A stretch of 45,154 bases of DNA from Methanosarcina sp. KYL-1 (lineage in GTDB: Archaea > Halobacteriota > Methanosarcinia > Methanosarcinales > Methanosarcinaceae): the NCBI RefSeq assembly GCF_024372725.1, contig NZ_VOUA01000032.1, positions 1 through 45,154 on the forward strand, given 5' to 3'. Numbering within the stretch: the first letter of the stretch is position 1; each line of letters starts with the position of its first letter. The notes beneath the pieces are model-generated. The model was not told the origin of the DNA, searched no databases, and worked only from the letters and a program-made list of their open reading frames with translations. Of the stretch, positions 522-27,991 are shown piece after piece. Made by a program: the position numbers and the translations under genes.

Positions 522-842
522 TCAGGGTATTTCAGACTTCTTCCCGGAGTGCAGAATGCCGGATGATTCTGAATATTTTCCAATACTTCTGAGGTAGGTA
601 TCCGGATTTCCCATGCTGAGGTCCGTTTCTGCGGGAAGGCCTGAGTGAGCGGGTATTGTGTAAGTTGCACATAGGGGGTTTGAGTCGAGTTCATAGGTCA
701 AAGGGCCCGTTTCAATGACCGAGTAACGGAAGAAGGGGCTCTGAGATGAGTGGCTCAGCCCTGGCTTATAGGCCATAGGGCCGCGTGCAGGACTCGAATA
801 ATTTTGCTTTTCTCCAGGTTCGGGTTTTCTCTGGTACTTCAT
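522..842 (-). CDS. Small hypothetical protein, 106 aa
   Basis: No family recognised. The main support is a good ribosome-binding site (GAGGTG, about 7 nt before the ATG) and a base composition closer to coding than to the surrounding AT-rich spacers. The protein is hydrophilic, rich in Ser, Pro, Gly and Tyr, has no membrane segment, and has a single Cys in the middle (LCATYTIP). It could be a short lineage-specific protein. The tandem repeat at 337-521 abuts its stop codon, as seen at other gene ends in this window, which indirectly supports it being a gene. Confidence 0.5.
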   Translation of the reverse strand: MKYQRKPEPGEKQNYSSPARGPMAYKPGLSHSSQSPFFRYSVIETGPLTYELDSNPLCATYTIPAHSGLPAETDLSMGNPDTYLRSIGKYSESSGILHSGKKSEIP

Positions 843-1057
843 CCAGTTTCACCTCTTTCCTAAAGTAGTTAAAAAAAGGTTCTCTGCTATTCTCCGCGAA
901 AAACTGCACATATCTTCAGCTTGAATCTTTTTAATTCGTTTTTTCGTTTTTTATCCGTTTTTTATTCGGCACTTTTTATCGTTTTTAAGTTCGCCTCTGC
1001 GCTTTTGAAGCACAAGGGCCGAAAACAACGAGAACCCTGTAATTTCGATGGGAAAGG

Positions 1058-1082
1058 AAGGATGGGTTTTTTACCCATCCTT
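1058..1082 (-). terminator. Hairpin 3' of the Mts-like gene
   Basis: A perfect 10-bp inverted repeat (AAGGATGGGT / ACCCATCCTT) with a 5-nt loop lies 52 bases past the stop of the methyltransferase. The reverse-strand flank is pyrimidine-rich. On the forward strand the stem is followed by a T run, so it could act in both directions. Confidence 0.55.
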
Positions 1083-1133
1083 TTTTCAGCAAGCTGAAAC
1101 TTGCCCGTTTTTCTTAAAGTAATTTCCGTGGGA

Positions 1134-3029
1134 TTATCCCATGATCTTCTTGTAGAGTTCCGGACCCTTCTCTGCCACGGTGTATGTCTGGGCAGTGATG
1201 GAGTCACAGGGTGCTCCTGGCGGCACTTCACAGCCGGTTGCAATCATGTACTTGGACTGCATGCCGTTCTCCTTGAGGGTGTTCAGGACGCTCTCCTGGA
1301 GGGCCATGGTGTTTGCCTTCATTGCTTCGAGGCCTTCTGGGCTGTTGTCCAGGAAGACGATCGGGCTGACTTCTCCACCGAACATGGTTTCCTTACCGTG
1401 GGTGCTGATCAGGTACTTGTGGTCCTTGGAACCCTTGTTGACTTCATCAGGGTAGAAGGTGTAGCTGTAGTACTTGGTGTCCCACTTGTGGATGAGGTCC
1501 CAGTGCGGGGCGTCGGAACAGTTGTGGATGACAGTCGGCTTGTTGTACTTCTTGTACATCGGGGCGATCCTGTTCTGCATGATCTGACCTTCGGACTTCA
1601 TGTATTCGTCAGCGCTGAGGATGACGTTGTTGGTCCAGAGGGTAACCATACAGAGGTTGTCCGGCTGAGCTTCTTCGAACATGCCCTTCATGATTTCTTC
1701 TACGTAGGTTGCGGTCTTGTCAAGGGCCTTGAGGACAACGTCGGGGTTGGTCCTGAGGTCGGAAAGGACACGTGTTGCTCCCATGATCTGGGTCAGGGCG
1801 ACCATCGGGCCTTCGATCAGGGCGGTCATGGGTGCGCCGAGGGCGTGTGCTTTCTCGGTTGCGATCTTGTTGCCCTGGATAAGGTTGTGGGCACGGGTGC
1901 CTTCCTTGATTTCGGGGACTTCGAGCTTCTCGTAGTCTTCGAGGTGGCCGACTGCTGCAGGGGTGTCCTCTTCAGGGTACCTGATGTTTGCGCCGAAGTC
2001 TGCTGCGTCGACACAGAGGTCAGTCAGGCCTACGAAGGTGTCCATGTTGAAGTACTTGATACCTGCTTCGACACAGGCTGCGTACTTTTCTGCCTTGGTG
2101 GAGTAGTCTGCGTAGGAGCAGGGTACGAATTTCCTGGAAACGCCACAGGCGAGGGGTGCGACCGGGAGCCTGTCGACTTTCTTGTCCTGGAAGGCTGAGG
2201 TGAATCTTTCTGCCTTGGTCATTACCTCGTTGAACTTGGGCACGACAGAGTCGAATTCTGCAAGGACTTTCTCTGCAGTTACAAGGCCGATGTCGACCTT
2301 TTCCCTGTTTCCTTTCTGGGCGAGGGACTCCTTGTATTTCATCTTGCTTGCTGCGAGTGCGGAGTCGCTCCAGAGGTCGGCCGGGAGTTCGCTGACAAGG
2401 GAGGTAAGGGTCTCAACTGCTGCGCTTGCGTCAAGAGCTGTGCCGTCTGCTCCGATCGACTCTGCGAAGGTGCTGGAGACGGGTGCGCCGCCGACCAATA
2501 CGATCATGGAGTCCCTGATACCTTCTTCCTGGAGCTGTTCGATAACGGTTTCCATTCCACCCATGGTGGTGGTCATAAGGGTGCTCATGGAGATTGCAGT
2601 TGCCTTCTTTTCCTTTGCGGCTTCTGCGAACTTCTCAAGGGGCACATCACAGCCGAGGTCAATCATGTTGAAGCCGGCTGCGGTCATCATGGTCTTGACG
2701 AGGTTCTTCCCGATGTCGTGCACGTCACCTTCGACAGTACCGATGATAACATTCTTGGGAGCTGCGGTCCCGTCTACTTTGATGTAAGGGGTGAGGATGT
2801 CCATCCCGGCATACATTGCGTCTGCTGCGAGCAGAAGGCTCGGGACGAAGGCTTCTCCCTTCTCATACATGTCACTGATGATTTTCATGCCTTTTGCAAG
2901 GCCGTCAACGATTGCTTCGTATGCATCGAGTCCCTCATCAAGGGCTTTCTGTGCGAATTCTTCTGCAAGGTCGTCGTCGCCTTCAACTACAGCATCAGAT
3001 AAAGCGTTCAGAATTTCTTCTTTTGCCAT
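1134..3029 (-). CDS. Fused corrinoid protein / methylcobamide:CoM methyltransferase, MtsD/MtsF/MtsH type
   Basis: The 631-residue protein joins two modules. Residues 1-210 form a cobalamin-binding domain: helical cap, then the D-x-H-x-x-G motif (DVHDIG, His104 as lower cobalt ligand), followed by SMSTLMTTTM and VGGAPVS typical of the B12 fold. Residues ~260-631 are a uroporphyrinogen-decarboxylase-like methyltransferase (MtaA/MtbA/CmuA family) with zinc ligands His502, Cys504 and Cys600 in HNC and ATGC. In Methanosarcina acetivorans, proteins of this architecture (MtsD, MtsF, MtsH) use methylated sulfides such as dimethylsulfide and make methyl-CoM; which paralogue this is cannot be told. The ATG at 3029 is chosen because GGAG lies 7-8 nt upstream; a longer reading from 3062 would lack this. 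A long leader and a divergent Msr-like regulator gene fit the Mts pattern. Confidence 0.88.
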   Translation of the reverse strand: MAKEEILNALSDAVVEGDDDLAEEFAQKALDEGLDAYEAIVDGLAKGMKIISDMYEKGEAFVPSLLLAADAMYAGMDILTPYIKVDGTAAPKNVIIGTVEGDVHDIGKNLVKTMMTAAGFNMIDLGCDVPLEKFAEAAKEKKATAISMSTLMTTTMGGMETVIEQLQEEGIRDSMIVLVGGAPVSSTFAESIGADGTALDASAAVETLTSLVSELPADLWSDSALAASKMKYKESLAQKGNREKVDIGLVTAEKVLAEFDSVVPKFNEVMTKAERFTSAFQDKKVDRLPVAPLACGVSRKFVPCSYADYSTKAEKYAACVEAGIKYFNMDTFVGLTDLCVDAADFGANIRYPEEDTPAAVGHLEDYEKLEVPEIKEGTRAHNLIQGNKIATEKAHALGAPMTALIEGPMVALTQIMGATRVLSDLRTNPDVVLKALDKTATYVEEIMKGMFEEAQPDNLCMVTLWTNNVILSADEYMKSEGQIMQNRIAPMYKKYNKPTVIHNCSDAPHWDLIHKWDTKYYSYTFYPDEVNKGSKDHKYLISTHGKETMFGGEVSPIVFLDNSPEGLEAMKANTMALQESVLNTLKENGMQSKYMIATGCEVPPGAPCDSITAQTYTVAEKGPELYKKIMG

Positions 3030-3307
3030 TGAAAATCTCCTTTTTTTTAGTGAAGGATCCAAACAGCCAGTTGTCTGTCTGTTTTTCCGGATCTCTATCC
3101 TGGTTTTTTACTGCATTTAGATCCTTAAACGGGTTCCACAGCCCGTTAATTCCCTAAATCCACGAATATACTCCTTAATCCACACAATAACCACAACCTG
3201 AATATTCCGTTCTTCCGGATCCTGTCCTGCAGGGTCCCGGAGTTCTCCTGGCCTGTGGCCCGGAGGTCAAATCTCCTTTCAGGCTATGATTACTAAAAAG
3301 ACAAATG

Positions 3308-3326
3308 ACTCAGAAATATATAGCTT
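3308..3326 (-). promoter_or_regulatory. Probable TATA box of the Mts-like gene
   Basis: Read on the reverse strand the site is GCTATATATTTCTGAG, a good archaeal TATA element. It would give a leader of about 260 nt before the ATG at 3029. Long leaders are known for methyltransferase genes in Methanosarcina; the start site itself is inferred. Confidence 0.5.
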
Positions 3327-3541
3327 AACCGACGTTGCTTTTCATTTCTCTGTCAATATTTGCTCTTGTTATAAAATATGGCTTTCCTCAGTTTTTGTGC
3401 GGACCGGGTTTTTGCCAGAGCACCGGTTTCAATGCCCTGGGGGATTTTTTGTTTCTTGCCTTTTTTGTGCTAAAAGCGTTTTTTGGCCATGGGTCGGTTT
3501 ACAGTGGGTGACCTCAAAAACTGCCATCTTCACGGAATCAA

Positions 3542-3617
3542 AGGGTATTGAAAAAAGCGGGGCATTGAAAAATAGGGGGCATTGAAAATTTGAGGGTATT
3601 GTTAGGGGGCTAACAAT
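3542..3617. promoter_or_regulatory. Candidate operator array: four GGG-YATTGAAAA repeats and a perfect inverted repeat
   Basis: The block GGGYATTGAAAA occurs at 3543, about 3559 and about 3576, with a weaker GGGTATTGTT at 3593, a spacing of 16 to 17 bp. It ends in a perfect inverted repeat ATTGTTAG-GGGG-CTAACAAT (3598-3617). It lies about 220 bp upstream of the proposed Mts TATA box, in the divergent region shared with the regulator gene. A transcription-factor binding site is plausible but inferred. Confidence 0.4.
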
Positions 3618-3810
3618 GCGCAGGGTCTCAAAAACCCCTTTAAGCCGTTGAATCCTTGTTTTCCGGACTGATGGCGGTTATTCGATCCGGTGCAAAAATA
3701 AGGTGGAACCATATTCTTGGGGTGCCTGAGATAGTAAAGGCCTCTTCAAAACAACAGGATATCTTTTATTTCTGTTTTATAGCTTGCGATTTTCTATCTA
3801 ATTATTATAA

Positions 3811-3962
3811 TTTAAATATAATCATGTAGTTTTTGACATGCTTCCATGACATTCATTGTTATGTTTTAAATATAATGTCCGCAGTTTTTGGTAAGTTGTT
3901 CATGGTGAGCTTTCCAGATCTGCTGCTATGGTAACAGTCAAGTATCAAGATTTAAATATAAT
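3811..3962 (+). promoter_or_regulatory. Three identical TTTAAATATAAT boxes upstream of the Msr-like regulator
   Basis: The 12-mer TTTAAATATAAT is present at 3811, 3865 and 3951. Each could be a TATA element, and the last one, 260 bp before the regulator start, is followed by a second TATA-like stretch (TAATATAATTAG at 3968). The first two are followed by similar GTAG/GCAG-TTTTTG sequence, so a larger unit has been repeated. The gene-free region 3330-4225 holds nothing else I can assign. Confidence 0.4.
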
Positions 3963-4225
3963 CTCTGTAATATAATTAGCTGGGCATTGATAGGAAGTTG
4001 TTTCCCATTTTTTAAAAAAAGCGTTGAATTCGGAGATCTGCTGTCGATATGACCACGCTATCTACGAAAATCGATAAAAAAGGGCGAAAGCAGCAAAATT
4101 ATGAGTGAATCAGAGGCCATCTCTTACATGGAGCTGGAGCTTTACAATCCTGCCTTTGTGGTGGGGTTAAGGGTAAATCCCGAAAACATCTGATAATATA
4201 GGTTCATGGTTGGAAGTTGATAAAC

Positions 4226-4999
4226 ATGAGTTCCCTTATAGACTTGATTTTCTTTTCTGAAAAGAGAAAAAATATCCTTGTCCAGTTAGCCAGCGGGCCA
4301 AAGGATATTGATGAGATCAAGGACACCCTTAACGTGAAGGCATGTGCGGTAATGCCGCAGATCAAAAAGTTGAAGGATATGGATATCATCCTCCAGAAGG
4401 GAAACGTCTACGAGCTCTCGGACCTCGGTGATGTGATCGTTGAAAAGATGCTCCCGCTCACATCTCTTCTGGACGTCTTTGACGGAAACAAGGATTACTG
4501 GTCAAAACATGACAGGTCTCCTATTCCCAGGCATCTGATAAAGAAGATGGACATGCTGGGGAAGTGTACCCTGGAAGAACCTGACCTGGACCACCTTTTC
4601 GAGTTTCCAAGGTATCTGCGGGACAAGCTGTTCAGTTCAAGGACTCTCAAGTCCTTTTATTCATACTTCTGCCCGGACTGTCCTTCAATTCAGGCCACCT
4701 GTGCAAAAAACGGAGCTGAAGTGCACCTCATCCTTGACGAAAAGGTTTACAACAGGCTGAAGGACGACTTTGAGAGCGAATACAATGTACTGCTTGAGAA
4801 CAAGGTGTCCCTCTATATCTATTCAGGTAACATAAGGCCCTCGTCCTTTATGGTAGCTGATGATTTCATGATGCTGAAGCTCTTCGGAAAAGACGGGGAA
4901 TTCGATCACAGGAAAATTATGAGTTTCAATCAGAGTGCCCTGGAATGGGGAAACGAACTTGCCCAATATTATATTGACAGATCAGAAAAAATCAATTAA
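4226..4999 (+). CDS. Msr/FilR1-type winged-helix transcriptional regulator
   Basis: A 257-residue protein with an N-terminal ArsR-like winged helix (residues ~1-85; SEKRKNILVQLASGPKDIDEI then the recognition region VMPQIKKLKDMDII) and a C-terminal sensing domain of the methanogenesis regulator FilR1/DUF1724 kind (FYSYFCPDCP, LDEKVYNRL, FDHRKIMSFNQSALEWG). In M. acetivorans, Msr proteins of this type sit beside mtsD/F/H and control them. Its divergent position to the Mts-like gene suggests the same role here. The ATG at 4226 is preferred over the in-frame TTG at 4217; both share the weak GGAAG upstream. A paralogue lies at 16617-17402. Confidence 0.82.
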   Translation: MSSLIDLIFFSEKRKNILVQLASGPKDIDEIKDTLNVKACAVMPQIKKLKDMDIILQKGNVYELSDLGDVIVEKMLPLTSLLDVFDGNKDYWSKHDRSPIPRHLIKKMDMLGKCTLEEPDLDHLFEFPRYLRDKLFSSRTLKSFYSYFCPDCPSIQATCAKNGAEVHLILDEKVYNRLKDDFESEYNVLLENKVSLYIYSGNIRPSSFMVADDFMMLKLFGKDGEFDHRKIMSFNQSALEWGNELAQYYIDRSEKIN

Positions 5000-20547: not shown

Positions 20548-20637
20548 TTACTTTGAAGCCTGTTACTTTGAAGCCTGTTACTTTGAAGCCTGTTACTTTG
20601 AAGCCTGTTACTTTGAAGCCTGTTACTTTGAAGCCTG
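20548..20637. repeat. 15-bp tandem repeat duplicating the last codons and stop of a gene
   Basis: Six exact units; on the reverse strand the unit is CAGGCTTCAAAGTAA, which is the last four codons (Q-A-S-K) plus the stop of the small-subunit gene. The first unit is the real gene end; five more follow in frame. Confidence 0.95.
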
Positions 20638-21135
20638 CTTCATCAGTAAAAGCAATCCTTTCAAAATCTCTTTCGGGGAAGGAGGGTTTCCCGGGATCTT
20701 CATGTCCACGGGCAGGATCTTATCCACCCCTCCGAGTACGGCATAGGACCCCTTATAGATCCCCCCGTCGCAGGCGTCGTCTCCGACGGCTACCACAAAT
20801 TTGGGGGAGGGCATGGCGTCATAGGTCTTTTTCACGGCTTCGGCCATGTTTAGGGTGACTGCCCCTGTGACCAGCAGGACGTCGGCGTGCCGCGGGGATG
20901 CCACAAAGGAGACCCCGAACCTTTCGACATCATAGTACGGGGTGCCCAGGTTTGAGATTTCGATTTCCGTGGAGTTGTCGCTGCCCGAGTCCAGTTCTCG
21001 GATTGCAAGGCTTTTCCCGAAGACCTTCGGGATGGTTTTTTTGATTTCGGCTCCCAGGGCTTCGAGTTCTTCGTCCCGGAAGGCAAAATCCTCCGTCACT
21101 TTCGGGCGGAGGAAGAGGGAAAGCGGGTTTACCAC
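20623..21135 (-). CDS. NuoB/HyfI-like small subunit lacking all cluster cysteines
   Basis: 170 residues from a GTG start with GAGGT 7 nt upstream. It aligns by eye with hydrogenase-4/Ech small subunits (complex I NuoB): RHADVLLVTGAVT, MPSPKFVVAVGD and VDMKIPGNPPSPKEI are clear. In cluster-bearing relatives the four [4Fe-4S] ligands fall in GSCNGCD, GxCA and PGCPP; here they read GSDNSTE (Asp53, Thr56), GDDA (Asp120) and PGNPP (Asn150). The only Cys in the protein is Cys122, so the proximal (N2-type) cluster cannot form in the usual way. It is the last gene of the six-gene operon. Fold assignment is firm; loss of the cluster is read directly from the sequence. Confidence 0.88.
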   Translation of the reverse strand: MVNPLSLFLRPKVTEDFAFRDEELEALGAEIKKTIPKVFGKSLAIRELDSGSDNSTEIEISNLGTPYYDVERFGVSFVASPRHADVLLVTGAVTLNMAEAVKKTYDAMPSPKFVVAVGDDACDGGIYKGSYAVLGGVDKILPVDMKIPGNPPSPKEILKGLLLLMKQASK

Positions 21136-21152
21136 AATAAGACCTCACTGAA

Positions 21153-21206
21153 TTTCTTGCATTTCTTGCATTCTCTGCATTTCTTGCATTCTTTGCATGT
21201 CTCGCA
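21153..21206. repeat. 9-bp imperfect tandem repeat in an operon spacer
   Basis: Six units of TTTCTTGCA-like sequence fill the spacer between the large- and small-subunit genes, beginning about 38 bp past the large-subunit stop. Confidence 0.8.
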
Positions 21207-21243
21207 TTTTTTTCCGTATTCTTGCCTGTAATTTCTTCCGGGT

Positions 21244-22920
21244 TCAAAGATCGGTTCCTGCATATGACATGTTCAGGCTCTTGTTGATAACCGGGAAATC
21301 AGGGACGATGTTCCCGAGCACGGCATGTTCTATGGCCTGCCAGTTGCAGAAGGATGCGGTCCTTACCTTGTAGCGGTCAATACGCCCGTTTTTCAGGTAG
21401 ACCCAGTGCAGGTTCTGCCCCCTTGGAGACTCCACCAGGGCAATGGAGTAGCCGGAAGGACCGGAGTAGCCGGGCCTGACATCGGACCTGGCTTCTTCGC
21501 CTGCCGCAGGGCCGTTTTCCGCAAACACGGGGCCTGAAGGCATTTCTTCCAGCAGGCGTTTGATGAGCTTCACGGATGCCCGGATTTCGTCAGCTTTTAC
21601 CTCAAAGCGGGAGAGCACGTCTCCTCCTTTCTTCACCGAGGGCTCCGGGGATAAGCGCCTGTAAGCCCCGTAAGGCCGGTCAAGCCTCGTGTCGGCAGGG
21701 CACCCCGAGGCTTTTGCCAGGGGGCCTGTAAGGTTGAGAGGAGCAACAAGTTCTTTTTTTACCACTCCTGTTGTTGCAAACCTGTCGATTAAGGAGGAGG
21801 AGGACATCGCCCTTTCGAAAGCCGACTCAAAAGTCCGGGAAAACTTTGCAAGGAAGGGGGGAAGTTCTTCCAGGGCCGGACCGGATATGTCCTTTTTCAG
21901 CCCTCCGGGTACCATTATCCCCCGCAGGAACCTTGAGCCTGTGAGTTTTTCGTTCTGCCTGAACACCTCTTCCCTCAGGATGAAGAAGGGGCTTGCAACC
22001 AGGGAAAATCCTACGTCTACGGCCATGCCCGCAAGGTCTCCCAGCAGGGAGTAGACCCTTTCTAGCTCAAGCAGTACGGCCCGCAGGCATTCCGCCCTTT
22101 CGGGCACCGCAATCCCGGAGGCGCGTTCCACGGCCGTACAGAACCCAACGGCGTTGGCTGCACTTTCGTCCCCGCTTACGGCTTCGGCCAGGGGGACACA
22201 TTCTAAGGGGCTTTTTCCCTCAGCCAGTTTTTCTATGCCCCTGTGCTTGTAGAAGAGCCGGATTTCCAGGCTGAAGATGGGCTCTCCAATCACATTGAAC
22301 CTGAAGTGCCCGGGTTCGATGATCCCGGCATGGACAGGCCCTACAGCTACCTGGTAGACCCCTTCTCCTTTCGTTTCCCTGAAACGGTATTCTTCGGGGT
22401 TTTTTCCGGCTTCCGGTTTCCGAAGGCTTATAGGCCCGTTTTTGAAGGTTTTTTGCAGGGGGTGGAAGCCTTCGGGGTAGCACTCGTGCAAAAAGAGCCT
22501 TCTCGTGTCAAAGGCCCCGGAAAACTCCAGCCCGAAGCCGTCCCTTACTTCCCGTTCAAACCAGGAAGCCGAAGGGAAGATTTCCGCAACTGAAGACACT
22601 GCTCCATGAGCTGCTTTTCCTTCCCTGCCCGCTGCCCTGCCTGCTTCCCGCACCAGGACGAGGACATGTGCCCTCCCGGCTTTTTTGAAGGCGTAAAAGA
22701 GGGTAAAGCCGCTCTCTTTCTCAAAGGCTTCCGCGCAGAAGAGCCCGATGAGGCTGAACTTCTTCTCCGCAAGGGCTAAGGCTGCCCTTTCAAACCCGGC
22801 TTCGGAGAGCCGGACGTAGGCCTCGTCTGTGCGGGCGCTGAGCAGTTCGGGCTCTTCTCCTGCCATTCCCGAAATTTCCGAAAGCAAATCCATTGTATCC
22901 TTATTCTTTTTCATATCCAT
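21244..22920 (-). CDS. NuoCD/HyfG-like large subunit lacking the Ni-Fe cysteines
   Basis: 558 residues. The N-terminal ~170 residues are NuoC/30-kDa-like (FEREVRDGFGLEF, RRLFLHECYPEGFHPL); the rest is NuoD/hydrogenase large-subunit-like (GPVHAGIIEPGHFRF, RLFYKHRGIEKLAEG, VERASGI). In hydrogenases the two Ni-Fe motifs are CGIC and DPC-x-x-C; by eye these positions read SGDE (Ser249, Glu252) and NMSYAG (Ser552, Gly555), so no Ni-Fe site can form. The ATG at 22920 is chosen because GGGGG lies 8 nt upstream; the longer reading from 22953 overlaps the previous gene. This is the Ehr-like (energy-converting hydrogenase-related) situation. Confidence 0.88.
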   Translation of the reverse strand: MDMKKNKDTMDLLSEISGMAGEEPELLSARTDEAYVRLSEAGFERAALALAEKKFSLIGLFCAEAFEKESGFTLFYAFKKAGRAHVLVLVREAGRAAGREGKAAHGAVSSVAEIFPSASWFEREVRDGFGLEFSGAFDTRRLFLHECYPEGFHPLQKTFKNGPISLRKPEAGKNPEEYRFRETKGEGVYQVAVGPVHAGIIEPGHFRFNVIGEPIFSLEIRLFYKHRGIEKLAEGKSPLECVPLAEAVSGDESAANAVGFCTAVERASGIAVPERAECLRAVLLELERVYSLLGDLAGMAVDVGFSLVASPFFILREEVFRQNEKLTGSRFLRGIMVPGGLKKDISGPALEELPPFLAKFSRTFESAFERAMSSSSLIDRFATTGVVKKELVAPLNLTGPLAKASGCPADTRLDRPYGAYRRLSPEPSVKKGGDVLSRFEVKADEIRASVKLIKRLLEEMPSGPVFAENGPAAGEEARSDVRPGYSGPSGYSIALVESPRGQNLHWVYLKNGRIDRYKVRTASFCNWQAIEHAVLGNIVPDFPVINKSLNMSYAGTDL

Positions 22921-22933
22921 ATGCACTGCCCCC

Positions 22934-24430
22934 TTACACATATCCGAGTTCAAGGACTATCGCTTCAAGGAGTGCCCTGAGAGGTTCGGGGAACCAGAGG
23001 CCCAGGAGGAGGGCAAGGGCGAGCATGAAGACTGTTGGAATCCTCATCCCTGCCCTTACCACATAGGGGTCCTGAAGGCTTTTTTTCCGGTATCCTGTTT
23101 CTTTTCCGTGTCCCCCTTCGGAACCGTCTCCTTCCGCTGTTACCCTTGAGAAGGCTTTTAACAGGAAGTTCGCAAAGGAGGCGGCTGCCAGGATGAGCAG
23201 GAGCAGGACTGCCAGGGTCAGGTAGGAGGAAATTTCCGCGCTTTCCAGCAGGATGAAAAACTTTGCCGGGAAGAGCGGGAAAGGCGGCATGCCGACGATT
23301 GCGACGCTCCCGAGGATCAGGGTCCAGGCTGCGCGGGGCTGGAGTTTGAACACGTCCCTCATGTCTTCACGCATGTTGCTCCTGTACTGCCTGTGCAGGA
23401 TTCCTGCGGCAAAAAGCAGGGCTTCCTTGACCAGGACATGGACCAGCATGTAAAAGAGGGCCCAGAAGAGGGCAAGGGACGTCCCTACCCCGATTCCCAC
23501 AAGGAGGAGCCCCATGTGTTCCACACTTGAAAAGGCGATCAGCCTCTTAAGGTTCCTCTGCTGGAACATGCTGAAAGCAGCAAGGGCAATTGAAAACAGC
23601 CCTGCAGCAATGAGGATAAAAGAGGCCTGGGATGCGGCTTCGCTGACCCTGAGCAGGGCGTACATCCTGAGGATGCCGTAGATCCCGAGGTTCTGCATGA
23701 GCCCGGAAAGGATTGCGCTAACCGAAGGGGCCCTTGCATAGGCATCCGGAAGCCAGGTGTGGAAGGGTGCAACTCCTGCCTTTGCCCCGAAGCCTATGAA
23801 GGCGAAGGCAAAGCTTGTCAGGAGGAGGGCCGGGGAAAAGCCCGAGGCGTTTTCCATAAGTTCCGTCCAGGAAAGTGTCCCCTCCCCCAGCACCTGGGCC
23901 GAGAGGGTGAAGAGGAAGATCAGCCCCAGGAAGGCAAAGAGCATGGCTCCTGAGACTATGAAGACATACTTTAAGGCTGCGTCGATGTTCTCCCTTGCCG
24001 AAAGGATTGCCACAAGCACGGCTGCGCAGACCGTGGTGAGTTCCGCAAAGACCCAGAAGAGGGCAAGGTTGTCCGAAAAGAGTGCAGCTGTGGCCATAAC
24101 CAGCAGGAGGTTGAAAGCCAGGTAGAATAGCTTGAGGTTCTTCGGGTCGAGTTCCCCGGCTTCCATCAGGCTTTCAGTGTACCCTTTTGCGTAGAAGGCT
24201 GCTGCACAGAAGCCGACTGCCGTAATAAGTTCCACATAGAGGTTCAGGTGGTCCAGGTAGAGGGTCGGCCCGTACCTTACCGGAAGCTCGAGGGTTAGCA
24301 GGGCTGCACATGTCAGGGCAAGGTGGAAGAAAGCGTTTCCTGCGGCAAGGGCGTTCATGAGCCTGTGGGACTTCGGGATGAGGCCGAGGGTCAGGAATAC
24401 CCCCATTGCCAGCAGATAAAAGCGGATCAT
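22934..24430 (-). CDS. HyfF/NuoN-like antiporter subunit
   Basis: 498 residues, about 14 membrane helices. Proton-channel residues are recognisable: Glu130 in FAELTTV (TM5), Lys217 in GAKAGVAPFHTWLPDAYARAP (TM7), and Lys in HVLVKEALLF; the TM8 position holds Asn (MQNLGIYG) where NuoM has Lys. A C-terminal hydrophilic loop (EGDGSEGGHGKETGYRKK) precedes the last helix. The gene overlaps the upstream HyfE-like gene by ATGA, so translation is coupled. It would form one of two ion channels in the membrane arm. Confidence 0.87.
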   Translation of the reverse strand: MIRFYLLAMGVFLTLGLIPKSHRLMNALAAGNAFFHLALTCAALLTLELPVRYGPTLYLDHLNLYVELITAVGFCAAAFYAKGYTESLMEAGELDPKNLKLFYLAFNLLLVMATAALFSDNLALFWVFAELTTVCAAVLVAILSARENIDAALKYVFIVSGAMLFAFLGLIFLFTLSAQVLGEGTLSWTELMENASGFSPALLLTSFAFAFIGFGAKAGVAPFHTWLPDAYARAPSVSAILSGLMQNLGIYGILRMYALLRVSEAASQASFILIAAGLFSIALAAFSMFQQRNLKRLIAFSSVEHMGLLLVGIGVGTSLALFWALFYMLVHVLVKEALLFAAGILHRQYRSNMREDMRDVFKLQPRAAWTLILGSVAIVGMPPFPLFPAKFFILLESAEISSYLTLAVLLLLILAAASFANFLLKAFSRVTAEGDGSEGGHGKETGYRKKSLQDPYVVRAGMRIPTVFMLALALLLGLWFPEPLRALLEAIVLELGYV

Positions 24431-25113
24431 AGGGCTTCACCTCCGTTCCAGACCTGGAGTCTCCTTATTTTTTTCCTGTACTCCTCGATGCTGGAGTCCA
24501 GCCCCACGGCCAGGATAGAGGTCAGCAGGACCAGGATGATCAGGTCGATTATGATCAGGATTTCAAGGATGAAGGGAAGTTCCGTAACAAAGATTCCGAA
24601 CATCAGGACCCCGTTTTCCATGCTGAGGTAGCCGAGGGCTTTTGTGATGACCTTTCTCCGGCTGAACATGACAAGCATGCCCATGAGGGTCAGGGAAAGC
24701 CCTATGACCGCCCCGAAAAAGAAGAGCTTCGAGAGGGCAAAGGCTTCAAAGACCCTGGAGAGGAAGGCGTAGGAGAGCAGGATCAGGCCTATGCTCAGCA
24801 GGAGGGAGGTCGTGGGTTCGAGGTAGGTGAAGTTCAGGTCTCTGCTGATCTTGATCTTCTCCTCTATCCTTTTAATGAAATGGGGGATCAGGAGTACCTT
24901 GCTTGCCAGGGTCAGGCCTGCCAGCAGCAGGAGTTCGCTTTTTCCTTCCATAAGGTAGAGGAGGAAGGAAACCGCCGCAAGCAGGAAGGACTGGACGGTA
25001 TATGTAGTAAGGACGGAAGCAAGGCTGCGGGTGGAGATGATCAGGGCTGCACTGATCAGGACGAAGACGAAGAGGATCTTGATTACGCCTTCGAGGAAAA
25101 GGGGTTCAATCAT
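24427..25113 (-). CDS. HyfE-like membrane subunit
   Basis: 228 residues with about six or seven hydrophobic helices (starts MIEPLFLEGVIKILFVFVLI). The hydrophilic stretch HFIKRIEEKIKISRDLNF after helix 3 and the NuoK-like C-terminal half match HyfE of hydrogenase-4. ATGA overlaps join it to the genes on both sides. It has no cofactor motif. Confidence 0.82.
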   Translation of the reverse strand: MIEPLFLEGVIKILFVFVLISAALIISTRSLASVLTTYTVQSFLLAAVSFLLYLMEGKSELLLLAGLTLASKVLLIPHFIKRIEEKIKISRDLNFTYLEPTTSLLLSIGLILLSYAFLSRVFEAFALSKLFFFGAVIGLSLTLMGMLVMFSRRKVITKALGYLSMENGVLMFGIFVTELPFILEILIIIDLIILVLLTSILAVGLDSSIEEYRKKIRRLQVWNGGEAL

Positions 25114-26051
25114 GCAAACACCTCGATAAGGATGGTAAGGGCTGAAAAGAAAAACGCCATCATGTAAAAGGCGGGAAGCCTGAAGAGGCGCATTTTCGCA
25201 AGGGCCGATTCAAAGAGCCCGATTACCACGGCAAGCACCCCGGCCTTCAGGAGGAATAGCAGGGCTGATACCGCAATTTTTCCTGCATCGGCTTCCGCAC
25301 TGAGCCCGATTGGGAGGATCGTGTTGATCAGGACCCCCATCAGGAGGAGCTGTTTTATGGCATGGGCAAGCTCGAGCAGGGCCAGGTTTTTCCCGGTCTG
25401 TTCCAGGATCATGGCCTCGTTGATCATTGTGAGTTCAAGGTGGGTTGCCGGGTTGTCTACGGGGAGCCTTCCGGTCTCCACGATGAGGATGATGAAGAGG
25501 GAAATCGAGACCAGGACAAGGGTCGGGCTTGCGGGGAGGAGCGAGCCTGCGGTCAGGGCAAACATCTCGTGCAGGTTCAGGCTCTTGAGGACAAAAGCAA
25601 GCGCAGCAAAAGCAACAACCATCGTGGGCTCGATCACGGCTGCCAGGCTCATGGAGCGGGAACTGCCCATGCCCCCGAAAGCACTGCCTGCGTCAAGCCC
25701 GGAAAGTGCCGTAAAGAAACGTTCGAGAGCCAGGAGGTAGAGGAAGACAATAACGTTTCCGAATCCTCCTGCAGGCTCCGGGACAAAGATGAGGGGCACG
25801 AAGAGGGAGCAGGCCAGCAGGGCTGTCAGGTTGAGGCAGGGGGTGAGCCGCATGACCCAGGAAGAAGTCGGGGAATAGACGGCTTCCTTGTGCATGAGTT
25901 TTCTTAAGTCATAGTAGACCTGGAAAAGTTTCGGCCCTTTCCTCCCCTGGGCATAGGCCTTAACCTTCCGGATCAGGGCCATGTAGAGGGGAGCTGCAAG
26001 CAGGGCAAAGGCCGGGTTTAACAGGGCAAAGAGCAGGAATGACGTGTTCAT
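25110..26051 (-). CDS. HyfD/NuoH-like membrane subunit (HycD family)
   Basis: 313 residues, about eight helices. The family signature is clear: KAYAQGRKGPKLFQVYYDLRKLMHKE in the first loop (quoted in part) and TGRLPVDNPATHLELTMINEAM, with acidic residues of the E-channel kept. This subunit links the membrane arm to the peripheral subunits in hydrogenase-4 and complex I. It overlaps neighbours by ATGA at both ends. Confidence 0.88.
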   Translation of the reverse strand: MNTSFLLFALLNPAFALLAAPLYMALIRKVKAYAQGRKGPKLFQVYYDLRKLMHKEAVYSPTSSWVMRLTPCLNLTALLACSLFVPLIFVPEPAGGFGNVIVFLYLLALERFFTALSGLDAGSAFGGMGSSRSMSLAAVIEPTMVVAFAALAFVLKSLNLHEMFALTAGSLLPASPTLVLVSISLFIILIVETGRLPVDNPATHLELTMINEAMILEQTGKNLALLELAHAIKQLLLMGVLINTILPIGLSAEADAGKIAVSALLFLLKAGVLAVVIGLFESALAKMRLFRLPAFYMMAFFFSALTILIEVFA

Positions 26052-27991
26052 ACGAGGACCCCCGTAGCGATAATCAGGGTCAGGACTGCGAGGAAGGCGT
26101 AAAGGACGTAACTGTCAAGTTTGCCGTTCTGCAGTTTTGCAACCCTCTTTGAAAGGCTGTCAATGGCCAGGGCAGGGGGGATGTAGAGGTATTCCTCAAA
26201 GAAGCGGAGCAGGCGGATTTCCACATGTCCGTTTTTGAATAGGCTTTCCTGCCCGTCAAAGTACTCCGGCCTGTGCACGATCCTGGTCCTGTAAATGCTT
26301 TTGAAGATCATGACCAGGGGTTCGGAAAAGCCTGCGGAACTGTACTCCGTCGAAGGGGTAAGAGCAGGGAAACCGCAGCCCCAGGTCTCGCTGATCCGGT
26401 CAGGGATTTCGGTCTTTGCGCGGACTGCCAGGAAAAGGGCTGCGTATATGAAAGCCAGCAGCAGCCCGAGCAGGAGCAGGTCCGGAAATTCGATGTCCCA
26501 GCCCGCAAGGGAGAGGATCTGCTTTGAAAAGATCCCGGTAAGGATGCAGAGGACTGCCGGGACTGCAGGCCCGAAAAGCATGGGCTTTTCGACTTCTTCG
26601 GCCAGCCTGCTTTCCTCGGAGCGAGGGAGTGCAAGGCAGGTAATCCCGAAAAGTTTTACGAAAAGGGCTGCTGCCAGGGCTCCGGTGAGGGCAAAGCTCG
26701 AAAGCGCAATTACCATGAACACCGTGAGCAGGGGGTTTGCGGAAAGGGCCGAAGCCTGGAAGAAGGCCTGGTAGAGCAGGAGTTCTCCCGCAAAGCCGTT
26801 TGCCGGGGGGAGGGCTGCAATGGAGACCGAGCCTATCAGGAAAAGGGCCGACGTTGCAGGCATAGTTTTGACCAGCCCGCCGAAAGCTTCTATGTTCCGG
26901 GTGCCTGTGGCATGGACCACCGAACCTGCACAGAGGAAGAGCAGGCTCTTGAACAGGGCGTGGTTAAAGGCGTGGAAGCAGGCTCCTGCAAGGCTCATAA
27001 GGGCAAGGGTTTCGAGTCCTTCGACTCTGAATATGACGTAGAGCCCTATTCCTATGAAGATGATGCCTATGTTTTCTATACTGCTGTAGGCAAGCAGCCG
27101 TTTTATGTCGCTTTCCTTGAGGGCGTAGATCACCCCGAAGAGGGCTGAGAGGCTGCCTGCGATAAGGATAAGCACACCCCACCAGAGTTCCGGGGAGGCA
27201 GCTGCAAGCAGGAAACGCAGGAAACCGTAGATTGCGACCTTCAACATGACCCCGGACATCAGGGCCGAGATGTTTGAGGGGGCTGCGGGGTGGGCGTAGG
27301 GCAGCCATTTGTGGAAGGGCACAAGCCCCGCCTTGACCCCAAAGCCGATAAAGAGGCAGAGGAAGGGCAGGGTAAGTGCTCCGGCCGGGTATTCGAGCGG
27401 CCCGAATTCGGCAGACCCGGTCAGCCTGTAGAGGCTAATGAAGCCCAGGAAAAGAAAAGTCGTGCTTATGTTCGTCATCACGAAATAAAAGAAGCCTGCC
27501 TTTTTGTTCTCCTCCGAAGAATAGTCGTGGAGCACCAGCAGGAGGGATGAGAGGGACATGATTTCCCAGAATATGAGGAAACCCACCATGTTGCCTGCAA
27601 GCACGACCAGCAGCATGGCAAGGACGAAAAGGCTTGTCAGGGCTGCCTGCAGGGCTTTTCGGGCTTCGCTTTTTGCGTGCTCAGTGTATTCCAGGGAATA
27701 GATTGAGACCCCGGGCAGGACGGCTGCTATCAGCAGGACAAACCCGGCCGTTAGCCGGTCTGCAGCCAGGGTGAAGTCCAGGCCCGGAAGGAAGCCGAAG
27801 GCCGGAAATGAGGGCTCTTTCCCTGTGTAGAGGACCGTGCCTGCAAAACCCAGGAGCAGGACTGACGAAATAAGAGAAAGGCCAAAGGAGGCCTGTCTGG
27901 CATTTTTACTGCGGTACAGGAGAGGGAGGACAGTTCCGGATACAAGGGCAAAAACTGCGCCGTACGCTAGGGCTTCGAGCAAACTATTCAC
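26048..27991 (-). CDS. HyfB/NuoL-like antiporter subunit
   Basis: 647 residues, about 16 helices. The ion-translocation residues are intact: Glu143 (FWEIMSL), Lys220 (GVKAGLVPFHKWLPYAHPAAP, quoted in part), Lys251 (MLKVAIYG) and Lys347 (ALFKSLLFL). It begins the six-gene operon. The open frame starts at GTG 27991, but TTG at 27982 may be the true start because AGGAG then lies 7 nt upstream. No separate ferredoxin-like subunit (HyfA/HyfH) precedes or follows it, unlike formate hydrogenlyase operons. Confidence 0.88.
   Translation of the reverse strand: MNSLLEALAYGAVFALVSGTVLPLLYRSKNARQASFGLSLISSVLLLGFAGTVLYTGKEPSFPAFGFLPGLDFTLAADRLTAGFVLLIAAVLPGVSIYSLEYTEHAKSEARKALQAALTSLFVLAMLLVVLAGNMVGFLIFWEIMSLSSLLLVLHDYSSEENKKAGFFYFVMTNISTTFLFLGFISLYRLTGSAEFGPLEYPAGALTLPFLCLFIGFGVKAGLVPFHKWLPYAHPAAPSNISALMSGVMLKVAIYGFLRFLLAAASPELWWGVLILIAGSLSALFGVIYALKESDIKRLLAYSSIENIGIIFIGIGLYVIFRVEGLETLALMSLAGACFHAFNHALFKSLLFLCAGSVVHATGTRNIEAFGGLVKTMPATSALFLIGSVSIAALPPANGFAGELLLYQAFFQASALSANPLLTVFMVIALSSFALTGALAAALFVKLFGITCLALPRSEESRLAEEVEKPMLFGPAVPAVLCILTGIFSKQILSLAGWDIEFPDLLLLGLLLAFIYAALFLAVRAKTEIPDRISETWGCGFPALTPSTEYSSAGFSEPLVMIFKSIYRTRIVHRPEYFDGQESLFKNGHVEIRLLRFFEEYLYIPPALAIDSLSKRVAKLQNGKLDSYVLYAFLAVLTLIIATGVLV

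Follow-up and report, generated by a model that had tools for sequence, protein, structure and literature searches.

What can a complex I-like membrane complex do when every ligand of its redox centers has been replaced? The question is raised by an operon of Methanosarcina sp. KYL-1 that lies on the minus strand, 27991 to 20623, of contig NZ_VOUA01000032.1; the window, to which coordinates refer unless another locus is named, is the whole stretch of 45,154 nt that was analyzed. The answer suggested by sequence comparison is that its six proteins, on balance, probably form a membrane complex that translocates ions independently of redox chemistry and that derives from an energy-converting hydrogenase-related (Ehr) ancestor, that is, from a Hyf-like complex without Ni-Fe. 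The initial annotation of this DNA had described an Ehr-type complex that lacks the cluster too and may work other than by electron transfer, and our analysis supports that description, the refutations proposed for it having failed.

The locus holds six open reading frames (ORFs) coding for HyfB-, HyfC-, HyfE-, HyfF-, NuoCD- and NuoB-like proteins. All six members of the complex I-like operon first proposed here were thus recovered, and protein family models agree with them, NCBIfam covering six of the six proteins and Pfam five. The HyfB- and HyfF-like proteins score above the curated cutoffs of the "hydrogenase membrane subunit" equivalogs, PRK08667 and PRK08676, respectively. The NuoH-like gene, which had been labeled HyfD, corresponds instead to HyfC (HycD). 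In order of transcription, the features are as follows.

26048 to 27991, minus strand: HyfB/NuoL-like antiporter-like subunit, GTG start, 647 amino acids, NCBIfam PRK08667 equivalog
25110 to 26051, minus strand: HyfC/HycD/NuoH-like membrane subunit, 313 amino acids
24427 to 25113, minus strand: HyfE-like (NuoK-type) membrane subunit, 228 amino acids
22934 to 24430, minus strand: HyfF/NuoM-like antiporter-like subunit, 498 amino acids, NCBIfam PRK08676 equivalog
21244 to 22953, minus strand: NuoCD/HyfG-like large subunit, 569 amino acids, Ni-Fe motifs replaced
21136 to 21243, minus strand: spacer between the large- and small-subunit genes, 108 nt, containing a 9-nt tandem repeat
20623 to 21135, minus strand: NuoB/HyfI-like small subunit, GTG start, 170 amino acids, cluster ligands replaced, predicted fold like MbhJ

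Overlaps join the first five genes, as expected from the translational linkage originally claimed for all six; the small-subunit gene falls outside that claim, as it begins 108 nt past the NuoCD stop. The KYL-1 genome, searched by protein family only outside the window, also has a separate Fpo-type NuoB/NuoD pair.

Loss of the metal sites is apparent in both peripheral subunits. Against HycE (7z0s_E; E 1.4e-67), the large subunit reads VSGDESA for VCGICGF and NMSYAGTD for DPCYSCTD; the Ni-Fe ligand motifs CGIC and DPCxxC are thereby SGDE and NMSYAG, so that the protein is a group 4 hydrogenase-like large subunit without Ni-Fe ligand cysteines, as in Ehr complexes, and not a group 4 [NiFe] hydrogenase. 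Against MbhJ (6cfw_J; E 3.5e-31), the small subunit has SGSDNSTEIE for SGSCNGCDIE, Asp for the third-ligand Cys (GDDAC), and PGNPP for PGCPP, which places D53, T56, D120, and N150 at the four [4Fe-4S] ligand positions and leaves C122 as the sole Cys of the protein. The same replacements, with the single Cys, had been noticed from the letters of the window, and the alignments bear them out at both sites, placing no cysteine on any ligand position. None of the ligands of the N2 cluster of complex I or NDH-1 is present in the aligned small subunit. Its predicted structure (predicted local distance difference test score, 84) matches MbhJ with a TM-score of 0.85 on the target and a root mean square deviation of 2.2, and loop 53 to 56, which holds two of the cluster ligands in MbhJ, is among the two lowest-confidence segments of the model.

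These replacements are not peculiar to KYL-1. Scanning a single genome for each species yielded 79 loci, to which whole-genome searches added others, and about 60 archaeal loci carry the redox-less form, with Asp, Thr/Ala/Pro, Asp, and Asn (or Asp) at the four positions and no Cys at any of them, where an Ehr complex would have the ligands of its proximal [4Fe-4S] cluster. Among 29 representatives used for the tree, ligands 1 and 3 are Asp in all 29, ligand 4 is Asn in 28 and Asp in one, and ligand 2 is Thr, Ala, or Pro. That about 60 related loci share this pattern rules out sequencing error or chance. The hosts are Methanosarcina and relatives, Methanomicrobiales, Bathyarchaeota, Altiarchaeales, Woesearchaeota, Aenigmatarchaeota, and a few bins labeled otherwise; closed genomes are among the sources, several others are metagenome-assembled genomes (MAGs), and some bin labels, Dehalococcoidia for one, may reflect contamination. 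The gene order B-C-E-F-CD-S is retained at every locus with a long enough contig. Judged by these comparisons, the redox-less complex is a conserved family and not the oddity of a single genome. At one Altiarchaeales locus (L018, 15817 to 20855), a second B, C, E, F set lies downstream, with no peripheral subunits within the stretch examined.

The means of delivering electrons has disappeared as well. A ferredoxin motif scan found no genuine ferredoxin-type gene in the operon or within 3 kb of it at 60 redox-less archaeal loci, and the same scan found the gene in many Cys-intact relatives; the ferredoxin-like (HyfH/NuoI) electron-input subunit of an Ehr complex is therefore missing, as had been observed for KYL-1. 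Eight ferredoxin motif matches were dismissed as alternate-frame ORFs within core genes or as low-complexity sequence. Clustering the ORFs around the loci revealed no conserved electron carrier neighbor, so that the separate electron-carrying gene envisaged as a possible refutation was not found in or near the operon at these 60 loci. The 108-nt spacer, which is not conserved in relatives, sits where the Cys-intact relative at locus L129 has its ferredoxin gene. Within it, a 9-nt tandem repeat (21148 to 21209) yields a Cys-rich, nonconserved frame, CETCKECKKCRECKKCKK; as a hidden electron carrier this was rejected, since it is a product of the repeat, was seen in none of the compared relatives, and has no conserved frame. 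A different repeat, six perfect copies of the 15-nt TTACTTTGAAGCCTG at 20548 to 20637, overlaps the end of the operon, where the small-subunit stop lies at 20623. Having lost, by comparison with its Cys-intact relatives, both the gene for ferredoxin and every cluster ligand, the complex has no classical route for electron transfer.

The membrane arm, on the other hand, appears equipped for ion movement. We looked for the charged residues of transmembrane helices (TM) 5 (Glu), 7 (Lys), 8, and 11/12 in the antiporter-like subunits and for the acidic residues of NuoH. The HyfB-like subunit keeps E143, K220, K251, H340, H344, K348, and E403, all conserved in relatives, and the NuoH-like subunit keeps its acidic residues (E192, D199, E206, E212, and E217), so that both sets are full. 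The HyfF-like subunit keeps E130, K217, and K335 and has Asn for the TM8 Lys, so the proposal that channel residues are kept in both antiporter subunits holds completely for the former and short of one residue for the latter. As Asn occupies this position in Escherichia coli HyfF too, it characterizes this subunit family and does not represent a loss. Charged residues are under purifying selection in both antiporter-like subunits and in the NuoH-like and NuoK-like subunits.

Selection has not been confined to the membrane. Pairwise ratios of nonsynonymous to synonymous substitution rates (dN/dS, or omega) are 0.04 to 0.26 across all six genes, with an omega of ~0.1 for the small subunit. Among 26 diverse members, this subunit ranks first of the six in conservation, at 65% mean identity with 35% near-invariant positions, compared to 46 to 57% mean identity for the membrane subunits. 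Invariants specific to the clade are found at the former metal site of the small subunit (E47, D53, D119, D120, C122, and N150) and, in the large subunit, at the former metal sites (D262, E263, and N267) and at D313, H543, N557, and K558. By these measures the six-gene complex is functional, as a vestige is not expected to show such conservation, and its peripheral arm has a selected role apart from holding clusters. A pure antiporter or a structural complex, both offered in the initial annotation, are weakened as options, the small cofactor-free subunit being the most conserved part.

How such a complex arose is indicated by locus L129, which belongs to a different family in the same order and has the genes B-B-C-E-F-CD-ferredoxin-S. 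Its small subunit is intact at GSCNGC, GSCACNGG, and PGCPP, its ferredoxin has two Cys motifs, and its large subunit is already without Ni-Fe ligands. Having the cluster and ferredoxin and no Ni-Fe ligands, it models the state before the loss and supports descent of the family from an Ehr complex. The two HyfB-like genes of L129 stand in tandem (677 to 4906). In a tree of the small and large subunits with the ligand columns excluded, the redox-less archaeal sequences form one clade nested among Cys-intact Ehr-type large and small subunits (support, 96/98; here and below, bootstrap and approximately unbiased [AU] values come with the program's long-branch and composition warnings); tree placement was among the checks suggested in the initial annotation. 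The simplest reading of these sequences is that the ancestor was an Ehr-type complex, Ni-Fe-less and still in possession of the cluster, that later lost its remaining electron wire.

A comparable loss has taken place in bacteria. A separate Actinobacterial clade (support, 100/100) lost all four ligands, which became Asp, Glu/Asp, Asp, and Ser/Ala, and a single origin of ligand loss in archaea and Actinobacteria is rejected (p-AU, 1.9e-5); as the trees have it, the two losses are independent. Replacement of Cys by Asp requires two base changes, and that Asp nonetheless appeared twice at ligands 1 and 3 suggests selection. The Actinobacterial small subunits (L071, L073, L074, L075, L080, and L081) still carry a single ferredoxin-type [4Fe-4S] motif as an N-terminal fusion, which leaves the archaeal form as the only one that is fully redox-free.

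In a Woesearchaeota MAG with a genome of ~0.9 Mb (L040, 252 to 12659), the six genes lie within an A-type ATP synthase operon, in the arrangement atpC-F-A-B-[six genes]-D. Counting this MAG, there are eight archaeal MAGs, DPANN-type or unassigned, in which the complex is the sole NuoB family match and the sole hydrogenase family match found, the NuoB search in one of them (G092) having used a single protein at a strict cutoff. Of 13 MAGs searched for subunit D of A-type ATP synthase, 10 gave a match and the other three are draft genomes. At 10 Methanomicrobiales loci (L016, L020, L021, L025, L026, L028, L033, L038, L048, and L049), a divergent β-carbonic anhydrase gene lies ~1 kb (0.9 to 1.6 kb) upstream, and in most of these a GNAT acetyltransferase gene directly precedes the operon. 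A CitMHS-type permease adjoins or is near the complex at three loci.

We propose that H+ and/or Na+ still pass through the membrane arm and that the intact, cofactor-free peripheral arm may respond to protonation or to a ligand and thereby gate or drive this transport. The responsive sites would be the former metal sites, now invariant and polar or acidic: D53, D119, D120, N150, and E47 in the small subunit and D262, E263, and N267 in the large one. The net outcome could be gradient-driven cation exchange or ligand-gated pumping alongside the ATP synthase. Arguing in favor of a redox-independent ion-translocating complex are the loss of ligands across phyla, low omega, the conserved ion path, the atpB-atpD insertion, its standing as the sole complex in eight MAGs, and the parallel appearance of Asp in Actinobacteria. 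A precedent exists in DAB2, which couples a complex I-type proton-conducting subunit to a nonredox reaction (PMC13144422). The more specific proposition, that electron transfer was deleted wholesale and that the Fe-S and Ni-Fe sites were rebuilt as acidic protonation or ligand sites driving or gating pumping through the inherited coupling path, is one that we advance tentatively. Several points weigh against a redox-independent ion translocator. The operon encodes none of the subunits that typify Mrp Na+/H+ exchange (MrpB, E, F, and G); a plain antiporter needs no strongly conserved NuoB/NuoCD arm, which implies something beyond simple exchange; the ATP synthase insertion is one case in one MAG; and an unrecognized cofactor or a separately encoded partner may exist.

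Among other explanations, the one that survives best, and that we still regard as rather unlikely, is a nonredox, chemically driven pump or enzyme, in which the arm would bind a small molecule and convert it where the Ni-Fe/quinone site used to be (DAB and NDH-1MS offer CO2/bicarbonate as an example), with conformational coupling to the movement of H+ or Na+. The high conservation of the small subunit would fit such chemistry, as would the large-subunit invariants (D262, E263, N267, D313, H543, N557, and K558), several of them in the old active-site motifs, and the DAB2 precedent (PMC13144422). The carbonic anhydrase neighbor points the same way, but it is restricted to a single order and may reflect an inherited gene order; moreover, the operon has no DabA or Cup homologue, and the large subunit showed no recognizable set of metal-binding His/Cys residues.

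It is improbable that the complex is a structural, regulatory, or decaying remnant of Ehr without transport activity of its own. Loss of every catalytic site would agree with decay, as would a patchy distribution with losses: the complex is present in 19 of 31 Methanosarcina genomes, and an operon-less Methanosarcina genome retains a 33-residue small-subunit remnant (L138, 9183 to 9278), a deletion scar. Against this, the six genes have stayed side by side in an unchanged order in different phyla, omega is low, and the channel residues are conserved. More improbable again is an oxidoreductase in which the clusters have given way to an unrecognized cofactor or to an electron-carrying subunit encoded separately, for while the fold of the small subunit is predicted to be retained and the Actinobacterial relatives with parallel loss keep one ferredoxin cluster motif, Thr, Ala, or Pro at ligand 2 and Asn or Asp at ligand 4 make [4Fe-4S] binding very unlikely, no ferredoxin-type subunit lies in or near the operon at 60 archaeal loci, and in eight DPANN-type MAGs no other hydrogenase or complex I unit was found from which to borrow.

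Compared to known systems, a redox-independent translocator would be closest to Ehr complexes, with which it shares the Hyf-like subunit set, the lack of Ni-Fe ligands, and its place in the tree, and from which it differs in also lacking the cluster ligands and ferredoxin subunit. Ehr complexes have been suspected to link charge translocation with redox reactions (PMC6349859); with clusters and ferredoxin lost, such coupling cannot hold here in its usual form. E. coli hydrogenase-4 and formate hydrogenlyase (Hyf and Hyc) have homologues of the six proteins in the same order (HyfB, HyfC, HyfE, HyfF, HyfG, and HyfI), whereas the redox-less operon is without HyfA, HyfD, HyfH, maturation genes, a Ni-Fe site, and an Fe-S cluster. 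The MbhJ-like small-subunit fold, NuoD-like large subunit, and antiporter-like subunits recall Pyrococcus MBH, MBS, and Mbx, but the redox-less complex has no redox center and its operon no Mrp-type B, E, F, or G. Respiratory complex I and Fpo are homologous in their NuoB, CD, H, K-type, L, and M cores and differ in having the N2 cluster, the I subunit, an NADH or F420 module, and more membrane subunits. DAB inorganic carbon transporters likewise make nonredox use of a complex I-type proton-conducting subunit (PMC13144422) but consist of DabA and DabB only, and none of the six genes encodes a DabA homologue. Mrp Na+/H+ antiporters have related antiporter-like subunits (MrpA/D) and lack NuoH-, NuoB-, and NuoCD-like ones. 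Our literature search found no description of a cluster-less Ehr complex or of a mycobacterial equivalent, though an earlier mention (e.g., Marreiros et al. 2013) is possible.

Genome G001 holds an intact copy of the six-gene complex, and the HyfB-like family model scores above its cutoff in 1 of 14 named control genomes, a set that includes Methanosarcina acetivorans; this genetically tractable species very probably carries an intact copy. It has long been asked how, in complex I, redox chemistry in the peripheral arm powers the pumping of ions by the membrane arm. A member of the superfamily with a peripheral arm, a NuoH junction, and channels, and with no redox center, would be a natural electron transfer-null system, and the redox-less complex may reveal nonredox means by which complex I-type channels can be driven or gated.

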